From Pseudonocardia lacus (GTDB taxonomy: Bacteria; Actinomycetota; Actinomycetes; Mycobacteriales; Pseudonocardiaceae): 58,693 nt of DNA. Positions within the stretch are counted from its first letter, which is position 1; the number at the start of each line of letters is the position of its first letter. Under the pieces are notes generated by a model. The model was given only the letters and a program-made list of their open reading frames with translations, was not told the DNA's origin and searched no databases. Shown here in pieces: positions 8,271 through 14,274 of this stretch. The DNA lies in assembly GCF_018531445.1 (NCBI RefSeq), contig NZ_JAHDTH010000025.1, positions 1 to 58,693 of the forward strand, in the 5' to 3' direction. The translations under genes were made by a program, and so were the position numbers.

Positions 8271-9137
8271 TCAGACGTCGTCGGTGCGGCGGCGTTCGAG
8301 GAAGACGGTGTCGCGCCAGCGGTCGCGGTGCCGGCCGATGCGTTCGCGCAGGCCGAGGGTGCGGTAGCCGGCCGACTGGTGCAGGGCGATGCCGGCGCGG
8401 TTCTCCGGGAAGATCGAGGTCTGCAGGGTCCACAGCCCGGCCTCGTCGGCCGCGGTGACCTGCTTGTGGATCAGGGCCTTGCCGATGCCGCGGCCGCGGT
8501 GGCCCTCGCCGACGTAGATCGAGGTCTCGGCGACGCCGGTGTAGACCGGGCGCGTGGAGACGGGCCGGGCCGCGGCCCAACCGACGACCCGGCCGTCGAG
8601 TTCGGCGATCCACCGGTGCTCGGGTAGCCAGGAACGGTCGAGGGCGCGCCGGTCGGGCACCTCGGTCTCGAAGGTGGCGTCGCCGGTGGCGATCCCCTCG
8701 GCGTAGATGCGCCGCACGTCCGCCCAGTCGCCGGCGTCCATGGCCCGCACGGTGACGTCGTCGGGCAGGTCGGTCGGGCAGCACGGGCGCGGTCCGAGCA
8801 TGCCCATGACGGCGTCGGCGGCGTGCGGGAGCCCGGTGCAGCAGGCCGGGTTGACCGACACCAGGGTGGCGGTGCGTTCCTTGCGCAGGTGCACGAACCC
8901 GACGTCGGCGAGCTTGCGCAGGTGGTGCGAGCAGGTGGACTGGCTGATCCCCAGCTGCTCGGTCAGCTCCCCGACGGTCACCTCCCGCCCGCTCACGGCG
9001 ACGGCGTGCAGCAGCCGGACCCGCATGGGCTCGGCCAGGCACGCGAACCACTCGGCGTATCGCGCGGCATCGACCGGCGCGAGCTGGCCGGGTGTCGGCG
9101 CCGCGCTGATGTCGGAGAGAGGCAGGGTCGTGCTCAT
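8271..9137 (-). CDS. ArsR regulator fused to a GNAT acetyltransferase (ArsR-ArsN-like)
   Basis: Single protein of 288 aa with two domains. Residues about 20-115 form an ArsR winged helix (recognition helix QSTCSHHLRKL) with a likely As(III) thiol site from Cys69 and the pairs Cys99-Cys100 and Cys119-Cys120. Residues about 128-285 form a phosphinothricin-acetyltransferase-like GNAT domain with the acetyl-CoA loop GHRGRGIGK (212-220) and FPENRAGIALHQSAGY. ArsN1 enzymes of this type are known to acetylate the arsenical antibiotic arsinothricin. It is divergent from the flavin monooxygenase gene across a region with three operator copies, so it probably represses both directions. It is read as one continuous frame; no break is seen between domains. 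Confidence 0.92.
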   Translation of the reverse strand: MSTTLPLSDISAAPTPGQLAPVDAARYAEWFACLAEPMRVRLLHAVAVSGREVTVGELTEQLGISQSTCSHHLRKLADVGFVHLRKERTATLVSVNPACCTGLPHAADAVMGMLGPRPCCPTDLPDDVTVRAMDAGDWADVRRIYAEGIATGDATFETEVPDRRALDRSWLPEHRWIAELDGRVVGWAAARPVSTRPVYTGVAETSIYVGEGHRGRGIGKALIHKQVTAADEAGLWTLQTSIFPENRAGIALHQSAGYRTLGLRERIGRHRDRWRDTVFLERRRTDDV

Positions 9138-9146
9138 GCCGACCAG

Positions 9147-9225
9147 TATCGACGAACATCGATGGTTGCGTCAATCGACGCTCGTCGATACAGTCGGGCC
9201 GCATTGGATCGACGCACATCGATGG
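9147..9225. promoter_or_regulatory. Three ArsR-type operators in the divergent arsenic promoter
   Basis: Three copies of ATCGACG-NN-C(A/G)TCGAT lie between the ArsR-ArsN and monooxygenase starts: 9148-9163, 9174-9189 (perfect 7-bp arms, spacer CT) and 9208-9223. The third is 10 bases before the ATG at 9235 and overlaps its ribosome binding site. The same word recurs at 12770-12785. The form and place fit binding sites for the ArsR domains encoded here; binding is inferred. Confidence 0.75.
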
Positions 9226-9234
9226 AGGGACGCC

Positions 9235-10614
9235 ATGAGCGAGACCGCCCGCACGACGACACCCGACGAATCGCCCGTGGTGGTGATCGGCGCGGGTCCG
9301 GTGGGCCTGGCCGCCGCCGCGCAGCTGCTGGAGCGCGGGCTGCCGACGGTCGTCCTGGAAGCCGGCGCGACCGCGGGGGCCGCGGTGCGCGAGTGGCACC
9401 ACGTGCGGTTGTTCTCCCGCTGGGGCGAGCTGGTCGACACCGCGGCGGCGAAGGTGCTGGCCCCGACCGGCTGGCCGGAACCCGACCCCGACACGTACCC
9501 GACCGGTGCCGAGTGGGCGCAGCGCTACCTGCAGCCGCTGGCCGACGCCCTCGGCGACCGGGTCCACTACGGGGCCCGGGTCACCGGGGTCGCCCGGCGC
9601 GGCTGGGACCGGATCGTCGACGCCGCCCGCAGCACCGAGCCGCTGACCGTGCGGGTGCGGACCGCCGGCGGCGAGGCCAGGATCGCCGCGCGGGCCGTGG
9701 TCGACGCGTCCGGCACGTGGGAGCTGCCCAACCCGCTGGGGGCCGACGGGATGCCCGCGCTCGGCGAGGCCGCCGCAGCCGACCGCATCCGCTACCGCGT
9801 CCCCGACCTCACCGACCCCGCCGAGCGGATCCGCTACGCGGGAAAGCGGGTCGCGGTCGTGGGCAGCGGACACTCCGCGCTCACCGCGCTGGTCGCGTTC
9901 GCCGACCTCGCCGAGGTCACCCCCGGCACCCGCGTGGACTGGCTGCTGCGCCGCGGCCAGGTCGGCACCGCCTTCGGCGGCGGCGACGCCGACCAGCTCC
10001 CCGCCCGCGGCGCACTCGGGCAGCGCGCCCGCCGGGCCGCCGCGGCCGGGCACATCGGCACCGTCACCGGCTTCCGCACCAGCGCCGTGCACACCACCCC
10101 CGACGGGCTCGAACTGGAGTCCTTCGACGGCGCCCGCGTCGGCCCGGTCGACGAGGTCGTGGTGCTCACCGGGTTCCGTCCCGACCTGGGCCTGCTGTCC
10201 GAGGTCCGCCTCGACCTCGACCCGGTGCTGCAGGCCCCGCGCGCGCTGGCCCCGCTCGTGGACCCGAACGTGCACTCGTGCGGCACGGTCTACCCGCACG
10301 GCGCCGCCGAGCTGGCCCAGCCCGAGCCCGACCTGTACGTGGTGGGCATGAAGAGCTACGGCCGCGCACCGACGTTCCTCGCGCTGACCGGCTACGAACA
10401 GGTCCGCTCCGTCGCCGCGGCGATCGCCGGCGACCGGGCGGCCGCCGAGCGGGTCGAGCTGGTGCTGCCCGAGACCGGCGTCTGCGGCGGCGCCGGCCTA
10501 ATCGACCAGGCCGGCCCCGCCGAGACCGACGGCCCCGCGGCGGACGCCGGGGGTGGGTGCTGCGGGCCGGTCGCCCCGGTGCGACTCTCGCTCACCAGCG
10601 GCACACGCGGTTAG
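9235..10614 (+). CDS. Flavin-dependent monooxygenase/oxidoreductase of the arsenic island (ArsO-like)
   Basis: Protein of 459 aa with two dinucleotide-binding folds: VVVIGAGPVGLAAAAQL at residues about 15-31 (FAD) and VAVVGSGHSALTAL near 203-216 (NAD(P)H). This layout matches flavin-containing monooxygenases. The C-terminal tail is Cys-rich (GVCGGAG near 415, GGGCCGP near 440), which would suit thiol-reactive arsenicals. ATG at 9235 has GGAGG upstream; the frame extends further 5' only through the divergent gene. ArsO-type flavoproteins occur in other actinomycete ars operons (for example the Streptomyces arsRBOCT cluster), but their reaction is not well defined. It is followed by an MFS gene in the same direction. 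Confidence 0.85.
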   Translation: MSETARTTTPDESPVVVIGAGPVGLAAAAQLLERGLPTVVLEAGATAGAAVREWHHVRLFSRWGELVDTAAAKVLAPTGWPEPDPDTYPTGAEWAQRYLQPLADALGDRVHYGARVTGVARRGWDRIVDAARSTEPLTVRVRTAGGEARIAARAVVDASGTWELPNPLGADGMPALGEAAAADRIRYRVPDLTDPAERIRYAGKRVAVVGSGHSALTALVAFADLAEVTPGTRVDWLLRRGQVGTAFGGGDADQLPARGALGQRARRAAAAGHIGTVTGFRTSAVHTTPDGLELESFDGARVGPVDEVVVLTGFRPDLGLLSEVRLDLDPVLQAPRALAPLVDPNVHSCGTVYPHGAAELAQPEPDLYVVGMKSYGRAPTFLALTGYEQVRSVAAAIAGDRAAAERVELVLPETGVCGGAGLIDQAGPAETDGPAADAGGGCCGPVAPVRLSLTSGTRG

Positions 10615-10644
10615 CCACCCGTCCCGAGCGGAGTCCGAGTCCTG

Positions 10645-11910
10645 GTGCGATCCGAGCCCACCGACGCGGCGCCCGGCGCGCTCTCGCCCGCCGGGCTCCG
10701 CCGCGTCCTGGCCGTGCTCTGCGGCACCGAGATCACCAGCTGGGGAGTGCTCTACTACGCCTTCCCCGTGCTGGCCCCCGGCATCGCGGCCGACACGGGC
10801 TGGTCGATCGGCACCGTCACCGCGGCGTTCTCCCTCGGCCTGGTCGTCTCCGCGGTCGTCGGCATCCCCGCCGGGCGCCGGCTCGACCGCCACGGCCCGC
10901 GCCGGGTCATGACCGCCGGCTCGGTGATCGCCGTGCCCGCGGTCGTCGGGATCGCCACCGCCCCGACGCTGCCGTGGTTCTTCGCCTCCTGGGCGCTGGC
11001 CGGGGTGGCCATGGCCGGGGTGCTCTACCAGCCCGCGTTCGCCGCGCTCACGCGCTGGTGGGGACCGCGGCGGGTCACCGCCCTCACCGCCGTCACCCTG
11101 CTCGCCGGACTGGCCAGCACCATCTTCGCCCCGCTCACCGCCGCCCTGGCCGGGCCCCTCGGGTGGCGCGGCACCTACCTCGTCCTGGCCGGCGTGCTCG
11201 GCGTGCTCACCATCCCCGCGCACCTGTTCGGGCTGCGCGGCCCGTGGCCGGACGCCGACCCGGGCGAGACCCCCGCCCACCTCGACGCCGACCCGGCCCG
11301 CGTCACCCGCAGCCGGCCGTTCGTGCTGCTGGTCGCCGCGGTCGCGCTGGGCACGTTCTCGGCGTTCGCGGTGGTGGTCAACCAGGTGCCGCTGCTGATC
11401 GAGCGCGGGATGACCACCAGCGCCGCCGCCTGGGCGCTGGGCCTCGGCGGCCTCGGCCAGGTCCTCGGCCGGCTCGGCTACGCCCGCCTGTCCGCACACA
11501 CCGGCGTGCGCACCCGAACGGCGCTGGTCCTGGCCGCCACCGCCGCGACCACCGCCCTGCTCGCCGCCCTGCCGGGCCCGTCCGGACTGCTGATCGCCGT
11601 GGCGATGCTCACCGGCGCGGCCCGCGGGGTGCTCACGCTGCTGCAGGCCACCGCCGTCAGCGACCGCTGGGGCGCGGCGCACTACGGGCGCCTCGGTGCC
11701 GTCCTGTCCGCACCCGCCATGATCGCCACCGCCCTGGCCCCGTGGGCCGGTGCCGCGCTCTCCGAACTGCTCGGCGGCTACCCCGCGGTGTTCGGACTGC
11801 TCGCCGGGATCGCCGCGCTGGCCGCCGTGCTCGCGCTCGGCACCGTTCCGCGCCACCCGGCGAGCACCGCCCCCGCTCCGGAGGCGCCTCGGCCGGCCGG
11901 CGGCGAGTAG
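10645..11910 (+). CDS. MFS transporter of the arsenic island
   Basis: Major facilitator of 421 aa with about 12 hydrophobic segments and a central loop near residues 195-220. The loop 2-3 motif GRRLDRHGPRRVM (near residue 75) is the family signature. GTG at 10645 starts 30 bases after the monooxygenase stop, so the two are probably one message. As no Acr3 or ArsB gene is present in the island, this carrier is the only candidate exporter here. It could move a product of the monooxygenase, the acetyltransferase or ArsM, which is inference. It is not obviously ArsJ: the partner dehydrogenase of the ArsJ system is missing. Confidence 0.88.
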   Translation: MRSEPTDAAPGALSPAGLRRVLAVLCGTEITSWGVLYYAFPVLAPGIAADTGWSIGTVTAAFSLGLVVSAVVGIPAGRRLDRHGPRRVMTAGSVIAVPAVVGIATAPTLPWFFASWALAGVAMAGVLYQPAFAALTRWWGPRRVTALTAVTLLAGLASTIFAPLTAALAGPLGWRGTYLVLAGVLGVLTIPAHLFGLRGPWPDADPGETPAHLDADPARVTRSRPFVLLVAAVALGTFSAFAVVVNQVPLLIERGMTTSAAAWALGLGGLGQVLGRLGYARLSAHTGVRTRTALVLAATAATTALLAALPGPSGLLIAVAMLTGAARGVLTLLQATAVSDRWGAAHYGRLGAVLSAPAMIATALAPWAGAALSELLGGYPAVFGLLAGIAALAAVLALGTVPRHPASTAPAPEAPRPAGGE

Positions 11911-11937
11911 CCCGCGGTCAGCGCGCCGTCGCGGGCT
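11909..11937. terminator. Hairpin between the convergent MFS and arsM genes
   Basis: AGCCCGCG (11909-11916) pairs exactly with CGCGGGCT (11930-11937) across a 13-base loop. It lies in the 7-base gap between convergent genes and runs into the last codons of arsM, so it may serve both strands. No U-tract follows, as is common in high-GC actinomycetes. Confidence 0.5.
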
Positions 11938-12754
11938 TGCGGGCGCGGACGATGGCCGAGGCGGCGTGCTCGTGCACCCGGTGGGTCTCGACGATCTCGA
12001 CGTCGGCCAGGCCGGCGGCGGTCAGGGCCCGCTCGAACTCGGTGCGGGTCAGGGCGCCGGCCACGCACCCGGTCCACCGGGTCGTGTCGGCGCGGGTGGC
12101 CGCGTCCATGTCGGGGTCGGCGATCACGTCCGACACCGCGAACCGGCCGCCGGGGCGCAGCACCCGCGCGGCCTCGCGCAGCACAGCGGTCTTGTCCGCG
12201 GCCAGGTTGATCACGCAGTTGGAGATCACCACGTCCACGCCGGCGTCGGGCAGCGGGATGTCCTCCAGGTAGCCCTGCAGGAACTCGACGTTGTCCACCC
12301 CCGCCGCGGCGGCGTTGGCCCGGGCCAGCTCCAGCATCTCCGGGGTCATGTCCAGCCCGTAGGCGCGCCCGCCGGGCGCCACCCGCCGCGCCGAGATCAG
12401 CACGTCCGCCCCGGCGCCCGAGCCCAGGTCCAGCACCACCTCCCCGGGGCGCAGGTCCGCGACGGCGGTGGGCACCCCGCAGCCCAACGACGCCGACACC
12501 GCCGTCGGCGGCACTCCGGCGGCCTCGGCGGGGTCGTAGAGCCGCCCGCCGAAGGCGACCTCCACCGGTCCGCAGCCACCCCCGGGTCCGCAGCAGCCGT
12601 CGCTCTCCAGGGCGTGGACCTCGACGGCGCGGGCCTCGTCGGGAGCGCCGGCCGCGGCACGGACCGCGGCGGCGGCGTAGCGGGCCCGCACGACATCGCG
12701 GATCTCCTGCGGCGTCGCGGTCGAGCCGGTGGCCGGCTGGTTCTGGTCGGGCAC
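11918..12754 (-). CDS. arsM: Arsenite S-adenosylmethionine methyltransferase ArsM
   Basis: Methyltransferase of 278 aa that would convert As(III) to methylated arsenicals. The SAM site is DLGSGAGAD at 109-117, and ISNCVINL at 177-184 is diagnostic for ArsM. Conserved cysteines appear at Cys54/55/61 (DGCCGPGGGCGP), Cys92 (SLGCGVP), Cys180 and Cys230 (RWTGCVAG), matching the arsenic-binding set of this family. GTG at 12754 is chosen because a longer frame to 12886 would cross the operators and the divergent arsR. It is divergent from arsR across 74 bases that hold two operator-like palindromes. Confidence 0.93.
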   Translation of the reverse strand: MPDQNQPATGSTATPQEIRDVVRARYAAAAVRAAAGAPDEARAVEVHALESDGCCGPGGGCGPVEVAFGGRLYDPAEAAGVPPTAVSASLGCGVPTAVADLRPGEVVLDLGSGAGADVLISARRVAPGGRAYGLDMTPEMLELARANAAAAGVDNVEFLQGYLEDIPLPDAGVDVVISNCVINLAADKTAVLREAARVLRPGGRFAVSDVIADPDMDAATRADTTRWTGCVAGALTRTEFERALTAAGLADVEIVETHRVHEHAASAIVRARKPATAR

Positions 12755-12769
12755 GTCGCACCCCCGTGT

Positions 12770-12820
12770 ATCGACGAATGTCGAATCAGAGGTTGCTCGC
12801 TTGCATCGACAGCTGTCAAG
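12770..12820. promoter_or_regulatory. Two operator-like palindromes between arsM and arsR
   Basis: ATCGACGAATGTCGAA (12770-12785) matches the 9.1-9.2 kb operator word, and ATCGACAGCTGTCAAG (12805-12820) contains the perfect palindrome GACAGCTGTC (12808-12817). Both lie in the short gap between divergent arsM and arsR. This fits autoregulation by ArsR and possible cross-talk with the ArsR-ArsN fusion. Confidence 0.65.
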
Positions 12821-12828
12821 GTAGACGC

Positions 12829-13200
12829 GTGTCGAATCGGAGCCGGGTGGTCGCCGAGCCGGCCGACGTGGTCGGCTGCTGTTCACCGCTGGCGCGCGAG
12901 CCCCTCGACGCCGAGCAGGCCGTCGACCTGTCCCGATCGTTCAAAGCGCTCGGCGACCCCGTCCGGCTGCGCCTGCTGTCCCTGATCGCCTCCCACGAGG
13001 GCGGCGAGGCGTGCGTGTGCGAGCTGACCGACACCTTCGAGGTCACCGGCCCGACGATCTCCCACCACCTCAAGGTGCTGCGCGAGGCCGGGCTGATCAC
13101 CGGCGAGCGCCGCGGCACCTGGGTCTACTACCGCGCCGACCCCGACGCCCTGCGCCGGCTCTCCGACGTGCTCGCCACCGGCCGGCCCATCCCGGCGTGA
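12829..13200 (+). CDS. arsR: ArsR-family arsenic-responsive repressor
   Basis: Winged-helix repressor of 123 aa. The classical metal motif appears as ACVCELTD (Cys62-Val-Cys64) in helix alpha-3, with a further N-terminal Cys17-Cys18 pair; together they can hold As(III) as in known CVC-type ArsR proteins. The recognition region is TGPTISHHLKVLREAGL. GTG at 12829 is preferred over the in-frame ATG at 12766, which would place the N-terminus across both operators. The arsC gene follows 16 bases later in the same direction. Confidence 0.92.
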   Translation: MSNRSRVVAEPADVVGCCSPLAREPLDAEQAVDLSRSFKALGDPVRLRLLSLIASHEGGEACVCELTDTFEVTGPTISHHLKVLREAGLITGERRGTWVYYRADPDALRRLSDVLATGRPIPA

Positions 13201-13216
13201 ACCCCAGGGAGCCATC

Positions 13217-13624
13217 GTGACGACCGTCCCCGAAGTGCTCTTCGTCTGCGTCCACAACGCCGGCCGCTCCCAGATGGCCGCCGCCCTGCTCGACCACCAC
13301 GCCCACGGCACCGTCACGGTCCGCTCCGCCGGATCGGCCCCCGCCGACACCGTCAACCCCGCCGTCCGCGAGGTCATGGCCGAGATCGGCCTCGACATCG
13401 CCGGCGAGTACCCCAAGCCCCTCACCGACGACGCCGTCCGGGCCGCGGACGTCGTCATCACCATGGGCTGCGGGGACGCCTGCCCCGTCTTCGCCGGCAA
13501 GCGCTACCTCGACTGGGAGCTCGCCGACCCCGCCGGCAAGACCGTCGACCAGATCCGGCCCATCCGCGACGAGATCGACCGCCGCGTCCGCGCACTGCTC
13601 ACCGAGCTCGTTCCGGCGATCTGA
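13217..13624 (+). CDS. arsC: Arsenate reductase, low-molecular-weight phosphatase type
   Basis: Protein of 135 aa that reduces As(V) to As(III) by a thiol cascade. The P-loop CVHNAGRS begins at Cys11, and Cys85 and Cys89 (GCGDACP) stand where the resolving cysteines of the thioredoxin-linked ArsC family lie. Asp104 in WELADPAG is the likely general acid. GTG at 13217 follows CAGGGAGCCATC. It is co-directional with arsR. Its As(III) product would be the substrate of ArsM in this island. Confidence 0.93.
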   Translation: MTTVPEVLFVCVHNAGRSQMAAALLDHHAHGTVTVRSAGSAPADTVNPAVREVMAEIGLDIAGEYPKPLTDDAVRAADVVITMGCGDACPVFAGKRYLDWELADPAGKTVDQIRPIRDEIDRRVRALLTELVPAI

Positions 13625-13779: not shown

Positions 13780-14274
13780 ATGACGACACCGGCCAAGCCC
13801 GACCCCGTTCCCGACACGTACCGGCGGGTGACGCCGTGCCTGGTCGTGCAGGGCGCCGCGAAGGCGCTGCAGTTCTACGCCGAGGTCTTCGGCGCGACCG
13901 AGCGCATGCGGTTCCCGGGCCCGGGTGGCAGCATCCCCCACGCGGAGATCGTGATCGGGGACGCGGTGGTCATCGTCGAGGACGAGGACCCGCAGCGGGG
14001 CACGACCGCCCCACCGGCCGGCGGGCTTCCCGGCACCCCGGTGTTCCAGTTCGTCTACGTCGAGGACGTGGACGCCGTGGTGGCCCGGGCTGCCGCCCTG
14101 GGCGCAACCGTGCGGCGCGCCCCGCAGGACCAGTTCTACGGTGACCGGGACGGCTTCATCGTGGACCCGTTCGGGCACGGCTGGGTCGTCGCGACCCACG
14201 TCGAGGACGTGGGTCCGCAGGAGATGGCGCGTCGGATGGCGGCGTGGACCGAGCCGGCGCAGGCGGAGGAGTGA
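13780..14274 (+). CDS. VOC-superfamily (PhnB-like) protein
   Basis: Small cytosolic VOC-fold protein of 164 aa: TPCLVVQGAAKALQFYAEVF at residues about 18-37, then PHAEIVIGDAVVIVEDED, and C-terminal DRDGFIVDPFGHGWVVATH. Such proteins are often listed as glyoxalase/bleomycin-resistance-like without known substrate. AGGAGGAG lies directly upstream. It is 3 bases before the YCII/ECF pair and probably belongs to that unit, since ECF42-type clusters often include VOC and YCII proteins. Confidence 0.88.
   Translation: MTTPAKPDPVPDTYRRVTPCLVVQGAAKALQFYAEVFGATERMRFPGPGGSIPHAEIVIGDAVVIVEDEDPQRGTTAPPAGGLPGTPVFQFVYVEDVDAVVARAAALGATVRRAPQDQFYGDRDGFIVDPFGHGWVVATHVEDVGPQEMARRMAAWTEPAQAEE

Follow-up and report, generated by a model that had tools for sequence, protein, structure and literature searches.

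The closest described counterpart of the locus analyzed here pairs an oxidizing enzyme with an exporter: ArsV of Paracoccus sp. SY oxidizes methylarsenite and ArsW extrudes methylarsenate, ArsW, ArsP or ArsK can extrude the ArsV product, and arsK of Ensifer adhaerens ST2 is listed as a methylarsenite efflux gene (PMC10080717). Acetylation is represented by PpArsN1 of Pseudomonas putida, which acetylates arsinothricin and contacts it through Arg75 and Arg77 (PMC6465285). Chains combining ars functions are known as well, namely arsN fusions with arsC or arsD and ArsR-ArsC fusions (PMC6205960), and the bifunctional ArsRM of Brevundimonas sp. M20 (PMC10190100). In Pseudarthrobacter AG30, an ArsN-like acetyltransferase accompanies an FAD oxidoreductase in both ars operons (PMC6256500), and ars clusters with major facilitator superfamily (MFS) genes occur in Amycolatopsis and Arthrobacter (PMC6514093), so parts of the module described below have been seen before; ArsO, in turn, is a flavin-containing monooxygenase encoded in ars clusters, also in those of Actinobacteria (PMC6514093). 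Here we describe an arsenic island at positions 8271-13624 of a 58,693-nucleotide stretch of Pseudonocardia lacus DNA (contig NZ_JAHDTH010000025.1 of assembly GCF_018531445.1; hereafter, the window), and propose, with a probability of about 0.62, that part of it, Unit A, is an actinobacterial ArsV-MFS system, in which a GNAT-fused ArsR repressor and a triple operator would control the oxidation and export of trivalent organoarsenicals.

The six genes that the initial annotation had placed in this island are all there, as profile matches and the sequence confirm (Table 1), and they form two units: Unit A (8271-11910), with the ArsR-GNAT fusion plus a flavin monooxygenase (FMO) and an MFS gene, and Unit B (11918-13624), with ArsM plus ArsR-ArsC. 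The fusion and FMO genes point away from each other across a gap of 97 bp, and the FMO stop lies 30 bp before the MFS start; the ArsM gene is convergent with the MFS gene and divergent from the second ArsR gene.

ArsV is defined as adjoining ArsR and an arsK- or arsW-like MFS gene, and arsV is said usually to neighbor arsK or another transporter gene; the window FMO adjoins both an ArsR and an ArsK-like MFS gene. It carries the flavin-monooxygenase motifs GAGPVG and GSGHSA (FAD and NADPH dinucleotide binding), with G19, G21, P22, G24, G210, G212, S214 and A215 conserved, and, across 84 sequences (the 80 loci surveyed below, the window and three plasmids), Cys349 and Cys417 are invariant while Cys443 is present in 82 and Cys442 in 76. 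Over 441 amino acids (aa) the protein is 49% identical to the FMO adjoining ArsK in Ensifer adhaerens E-60, where the order is GNAT-arsR-FMO-arsK, with GNAT as a separate upstream gene and an ArsK that passes its cut-off at 513 bits. Neotabrizicola (Paracoccaceae) has the order arsR-FMO-MFS, with ArsK as the best model of its MFS (220 bits, below 400), and the three FMOs are about equidistant (50% identity for both window-Neotabrizicola and Ensifer-Neotabrizicola). Judged from motifs, homology and neighbors, the window FMO is probably ArsV-type. Since homologous FMOs (49-50% identity) sit in arsR-FMO-arsK or arsR-FMO-MFS operons, that is, in the layout of ArsV-ArsW/ArsK, the FMO-MFS pair is probably no new route, its chemistry having probably been described in other bacteria before; the new detoxification route suggested by the initial annotation thus gives way to an ArsV-ArsW/ArsK pair already in print (PMC10080717). 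ArsO was considered as an identity of the FMO and rejected (NF040505, 54.1 bits vs. a cut-off of 425, the best stretch being the N-terminal half).

The FMO family is large (at least 8000 relatives matched), and among the matches listed, relatives are labeled, for example, thioredoxin reductase (a frequent jgi name) or NAD(P)-binding protein. These automatic names, a weak YpdA match (47.7 bits) and the best solved-structure match (7a76, E = 1e-9, a chain that also bears the name thioredoxin reductase) would fit an FMO that works with ArsC in the manner of a thioredoxin or mycothiol reductase. We consider such a thiol-redox role very improbable, given that the enzyme is without CxxC, that the YpdA score is far under the cut-off of 339.9, and that ArsC belongs to the other unit; an identity as thioredoxin reductase was rejected. 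The solved-structure matches are weak throughout, mostly cover the FAD-binding part and also include flavin monooxygenases. Some further flavoproteins were observed in these neighborhoods. On a Neotabrizicola plasmid (L087, 7347-10769), arsR-FMO-MFS adjoins arsJ and its GAPDH, which brings two MFS export strategies together; on a Staphylococcus arlettae plasmid, an FMO homologue (42%; L086, 5875-7281) adjoins merR1-merA, with no MFS annotated beside it; and in 11 loci (L015, L017, L035, L036, L044, L047, L055, L056, L064, L074 and L076) the FMO gene has another flavoprotein gene downstream of it, whose product shares about 30% identity with the FMO and which directly follows the MFS gene in eight of them.

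The MFS carrier is the best match of its genome to the ArsK model NF033733 (155 bits, the next match having 64), under the curated cut-off of 400, and is 33% identical to both the Ensifer ArsK and the Neotabrizicola MFS. One cysteine, Cys26, is common to 40 of 44 sequences. An identity as ArsJ was rejected on profile scores and comparison.

To describe the neighborhood of the FMO we scanned genome contigs with it, which gave 340 matching stretches, 100 of them encoding a relative, and kept the best 80; these loci are close relatives, and the shares reported are hence not population frequencies (neighbors were sought by tblastn, E 1e-5). In 52 of the 80 loci, the gene divergent from the FMO encodes an ArsR-GNAT fusion, which puts the gene set beyond chance, and an MFS gene directly follows the FMO in 49. 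In the remaining 28 loci no such fusion was recognised; many of them are from Streptomyces and carry a plain ArsR, one (L032) is cut by a contig end and one (L017) has the fusion displaced. An ArsM match was found in only 6/80 loci, two of which are just 33-35% identical and perhaps other methyltransferases. The window's entire set recurs, together with Acr3, in Pseudonocardia sp. TRM90224 (L013). Outside Actinobacteria, an MFS gene follows the FMO in all three loci (L080, L081 and L083, the first a 3.3-kb contig), and tblastn of their flanks found no GNAT match. As FMO and MFS stay together in these three loci without it, export of the FMO product by the MFS is probable; this part of the initial annotation, and the handling of organoarsenicals that went with it, probably holds, as an inference from gene company.

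The divergent intergenic region of Unit A carries three palindromic sites. The exact pattern ATCGAY-N4-RTCGAT occurs in the 8.06-Mb genome at 9148, 9174 and 9208 only, and its reversed control nowhere. The first-class palindrome, ATCGAC-N4-GTCGAT, was derived from the window and then counted in the 80 loci of the survey. A divergent ArsR is present in 73 of these, and every one of the 73 had at least one site (two or fewer mismatches) in its intergenic region, with a total of 186 in these regions (13.0 per kb) vs. 87 elsewhere in the same loci (0.06 per kb). At three or fewer mismatches, exactly three sites are found in 42 of the 52 fused loci, two in 3, and four or five in 7; the 26-bp spacing occurs 49 times among them, the next commonest spacings being 33, 32 and 34 bp.

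The fusion itself consists of an ArsR domain (about 20-100), two adjacent-cysteine pairs (99/100 and 119/120) and an ArsN1-like acetyltransferase (about 130-283). In an alignment of 53 fusions (52 loci and the window), both pairs are invariant, and Cys33 is present in 51 and Cys69 in 37. The second pair aligns with the ECC of the Ensifer ArsR, the earlier cysteine being shifted; adjacent cysteines (Cys101-102) are the signature of methylarsenite (MAs(III))-selective ArsR according to PMC6514093. Of the NCBIfam models, ArsN1 family A fits the GNAT half best, both in the window and in 10 other fusions (11 scored of 53), and, in combination with the acetylation of arsinothricin by PpArsN1 (PMC6465285), this match gives some ground for regarding Unit A as an arsinothricin unit, that is, the fusion would be a resistance enzyme with its own repressor and the FMO and MFS would handle arsinothricin or its reduced form. 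However, all 11 scored fusions miss the ArsN1a cut-off of 170 (117-147 bits; 119.6 in the window, which also scores 70.7 vs. 210 for ArsN1 B), so that the ArsN1 label given by the initial annotation is approximate, right as to the nearest family and short of the cut-off. No match in 150 genomes of the family passes that cut-off either, and for 13 of the 20 best matches there the open frame measures 276-323 aa, close to the fusion length (not individually checked). By motif position, PpArsN1 itself not being aligned, Arg77 of PpArsN1 corresponds to Arg196 of the fusion, conserved in 90% or more of 31 sequences, and Arg75 to Ser194, with Ser in 52/53. Arsinothricin acetylation by the fusion is thus unproven, because the GNAT half misses the ArsN1 cut-offs and seems to carry Ser at the Arg75 position. 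Moreover, the FMO and MFS are also found with plain ArsR and no GNAT, and one fusion (L076, 9089-9904) has a shortened GNAT half whose substrate loop is gone, with operators, FMO and MFS still there. For these reasons we regard the arsinothricin unit as quite unlikely. The same locus, having partly lost its GNAT and kept the rest, suggests that repression is the core role of the fusion.

Table 1. Genes and predicted operator sites of the arsenic island (window coordinates).
Feature	Position	Strand	Remarks
ArsR-GNAT fusion	8271..9137	-	288 aa; Pfam HTH_20/HTH_5 and Acetyltransf_1
Operator 1 (predicted)	9148..9163	.	ATCGACGAACATCGAT; one of 3 exact-pattern places in the genome
Operator 2 (predicted)	9174..9189	.	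ATCGACGCTCGTCGAT; perfect half-sites; 26 bp after operator 1
Operator 3 (predicted)	9208..9223	.	ATCGACGCACATCGAT; directly 5' of the FMO ribosome-binding site
ArsV-type flavin monooxygenase (inferred identity)	9235..10614	+	459 aa; from motifs, homology, neighbors
MFS exporter related to ArsK (predicted)	10645..11910	+	NF033733 (ArsK) 155 bits, cut-off 400
ArsM, As(III) S-adenosylmethionine methyltransferase	11918..12754	-	GTG start at 12754; NF008823 281.3 bits
Second-class operator (predicted)	12770..12785	.	ATCGACGAATGTCGAA; 1 mismatch
Weaker operator-like site	12805..12820	.	ATCGACAGCTGTCAAG; 2 mismatches to first class
Second-class operator (predicted)	12821..12836	.	GTAGACGCGTGTCGAA; 1 mismatch; over ArsR start
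ArsR, CVC type, N-terminal GCC	about 12829..13200	+	GTG start chosen from comparison with relatives
ArsC, LMWPc (thiol) type	13217..13624	+	PF01451

In Unit B, ArsM passes the arsenite methyltransferase cut-off (NF008823, 281.3 vs. 263, scanned from 12742), and its cysteines lie in GCCGPGGGCG, SLGCGVP, SNCVIN and TGCVAG, which we take to hold the functional ArsM cysteines. The second ArsR carries GEACVCE and scores 105.6 bits for NF041413 (cut-off 155) and 98.7 for NF033788 (cut-off 55), scanned from 12823. The initial annotation had described an island without a pump for trivalent arsenic, As(III), and for the island this is right, as no Acr3 remnant was found in the window (best tblastn match E = 5.6), its own MFS being the ArsK-like carrier described above. 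In six loci (L007, L009, L013, L020, L061 and L079) arsR and arsC enclose acr3, whereas in the window they are just 16 bp apart, so that loss of acr3 is the simplest reading, and Unit B may be a former arsR-acr3-arsC operon complemented from elsewhere in the genome. Beyond the island, a VOC protein (13780-14274) was rejected as ArsI (only one cysteine is present, and a YCII protein and, by eye, a sigma-factor-like frame come next), and PADLOC returned HTH and FAD matches only, without bearing on the island.

For the genome as a whole (8.06 Mb in 501 contigs, assembly contamination 4.38%), the absence of a pump does not hold. There is one strong Acr3 (PF01758, E = 7e-54), on an 11.4-kb contig (C151) with the order ArsR, Acr3, ArsC, ArsC and an ArsM facing them, the latter 81-82% identical to the island ArsM. 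The same contig holds a DDE transposase (L003, 228-1034) and a tyrosine-type phage integrase (1588-2748), hence the acr3-arsC-arsM cluster may be mobile and C151 probably carries a mobile arsenic element. A second PF01758 (SBF) match (L002, G000:C484:15550-16101, E = 1.5e-30) was missed by the Acr3 protein search at E 1e-60, and a PF02040 match on C465 was rejected as the missing ArsB, the 4.2-kb stretch having no ars gene alongside by eye, with its neighbors without family scan. The sole second-class match on C151 (ATAGAC-N4-GTCGAA, 2 mismatches) lies at the ArsR start of arsR-acr3, so C151 Acr3 may share the regulon of the second ArsR, on the evidence of this site. Sites of this class (two or fewer mismatches) precede ArsR2-Acr3 in 14 of 30 regions, C151 included, mostly in Pseudonocardia, while the other 16, mostly from other genera, are without one and many have different palindromes; within the window, allowing 2 mismatches brings in the perfect site at 9174 and a single distant place (35541) as well. 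Conversely, the whole-genome pattern count found no exact copy of the first-class (fusion) operator at C151 Acr3, and nothing ties this Acr3 to the fusion. Regarding an Acr3 elsewhere under the same operator, which the initial annotation had named as a refutation, the second class therefore offers such a link at 2 mismatches, and the fusion operator none at all.

The genus gives the same picture. In 62 Pseudonocardia genomes, the window's own included (up to 26 candidates scored per genome), the FMO is present in 34, Acr3 in 45 and both in 31, with the FMO lacking Acr3 in three (G012, G042 and G051). That is, Acr3 occurs in 31/34 FMO-bearing vs. 14/28 FMO-less genomes (Fisher p = 0.0004, uncorrected for kinship), and in 24/34 no more than 10 kb separates it from the FMO, one partial match (G017) included; among the surveyed loci it is in the fetched flank of 38/80 overall and 28/52 fused ones. 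Hence, the module accompanies Acr3 rather than replacing it, contrary to the Acr3-free strategy put forward earlier. The partial match (G017:C1:7132541-7135678) adjoins the FMO, covers 177/372 residues and has one internal stop; this acr3 may be decaying. These counts also bear on a second inorganic arsenic operon, in which the FMO would handle As(III) or antimonite, Sb(III), and the MFS would be an ArsK-type As(III) exporter. According to reference titles, ArsK acts on methylarsenite and trivalent roxarsone as well as on As(III) and Sb(III), and ArsV on both organoarsenicals and antimonite. The MFS is also the best ArsK-model match of its genome; however, it stays well under the ArsK cut-off, and a further As(III) exporter would be redundant where Acr3 is so commonly at hand. 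We therefore view the inorganic route as unlikely.

Hence, we favor the ArsV-MFS reading of Unit A, under which the fusion would repress its own gene and the FMO-MFS operon via the three palindromes, until it is released by a trivalent arsenical that binds to its invariant cysteine pairs; this ligand would most likely be methylarsenite or some other organoarsenical in the trivalent state. The ArsV-type enzyme would then hold the arsenical by its conserved cysteines and oxidize it with NADPH and O2 to a less toxic pentavalent form for export by the ArsK/ArsW-like MFS, and the GNAT half would probably add acetylation of an amino-acid-like arsenical. Unit B, under the control of the second ArsR, would contribute ArsM and ArsR-ArsC, with C151 Acr3 making up for the missing acr3. 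Several observations weigh against this reading. The MFS shares no more than 33% identity with ArsK and scores under its cut-off; no recognised MFS lies right after the FMO in 31/80 loci, some of them at contig ends; the cysteine earlier in the Ensifer ArsR domain (LICRANY) is absent from the fusion; and ArsV/ArsW membership is deduced from neighbors and review statements. Finally, C151 could be a contaminant, its GC content being 0.715 vs. 0.747 and its tetranucleotide correlation 0.986 vs. 0.992-0.997 for pieces of the window.

A bolder version, which we consider possible yet doubtful, is that the fusion is a dual sensor-enzyme that represses cooperatively at three sites, senses trivalent organoarsenicals by its two Cys-Cys pairs and, once off the DNA, acetylates an amino-acid-like arsenical antibiotic, perhaps a still-unknown actinobacterial one other than arsinothricin. 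If so, the module would be a dedicated defense against arsenical natural products, spread through Actinobacteria and supplementing Acr3. Independently of this version, the results suggest that ArsV-type oxidation and export, for which there are reports from Paracoccus and Ensifer, is a common strategy among Actinobacteria, they correct the idea that such islands replace Acr3, and they point to an ArsR-acetyltransferase fusion with a compact operator open to easy testing. The literature searched, with subscription papers mostly out of reach, yielded no description of an ArsR-ArsN or ArsR-GNAT fusion, and the fused sensor with its triple DNA switch may be undescribed so far.

Compared with the known systems, Unit A shares with ArsV-ArsW (Paracoccus sp. 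SY) and ArsK (Ensifer adhaerens ST2) an FMO adjoining ArsR and an MFS exporter, a likeness drawn via operon homologues and review statements, but its regulator is GNAT-fused and divergent, its operator has three sites and its MFS is distant in sequence (33% identity). The MFS resembles ArsK in its best curated match and in its place after the FMO, as in Ensifer, and differs in its score (155 vs. 400 bits); the FMO resembles ArsO as an FMO of ars clusters, but with 54 bits against a cut-off of 425. With ArsN1 of Pseudomonas putida, the GNAT half has in common the fold, the ars context and the closest curated model (ArsN1 family A), whereas it is fused behind ArsR, scores under the cut-off, has Ser at the Arg75 position by motif, and carries an FPEN segment where PAT-type proteins carry a VIG segment. 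Lastly, like ArsRM and ArsR-ArsC, the fusion unites a repressor and a detoxifying enzyme in one chain, with an acetyltransferase as the partner domain instead.

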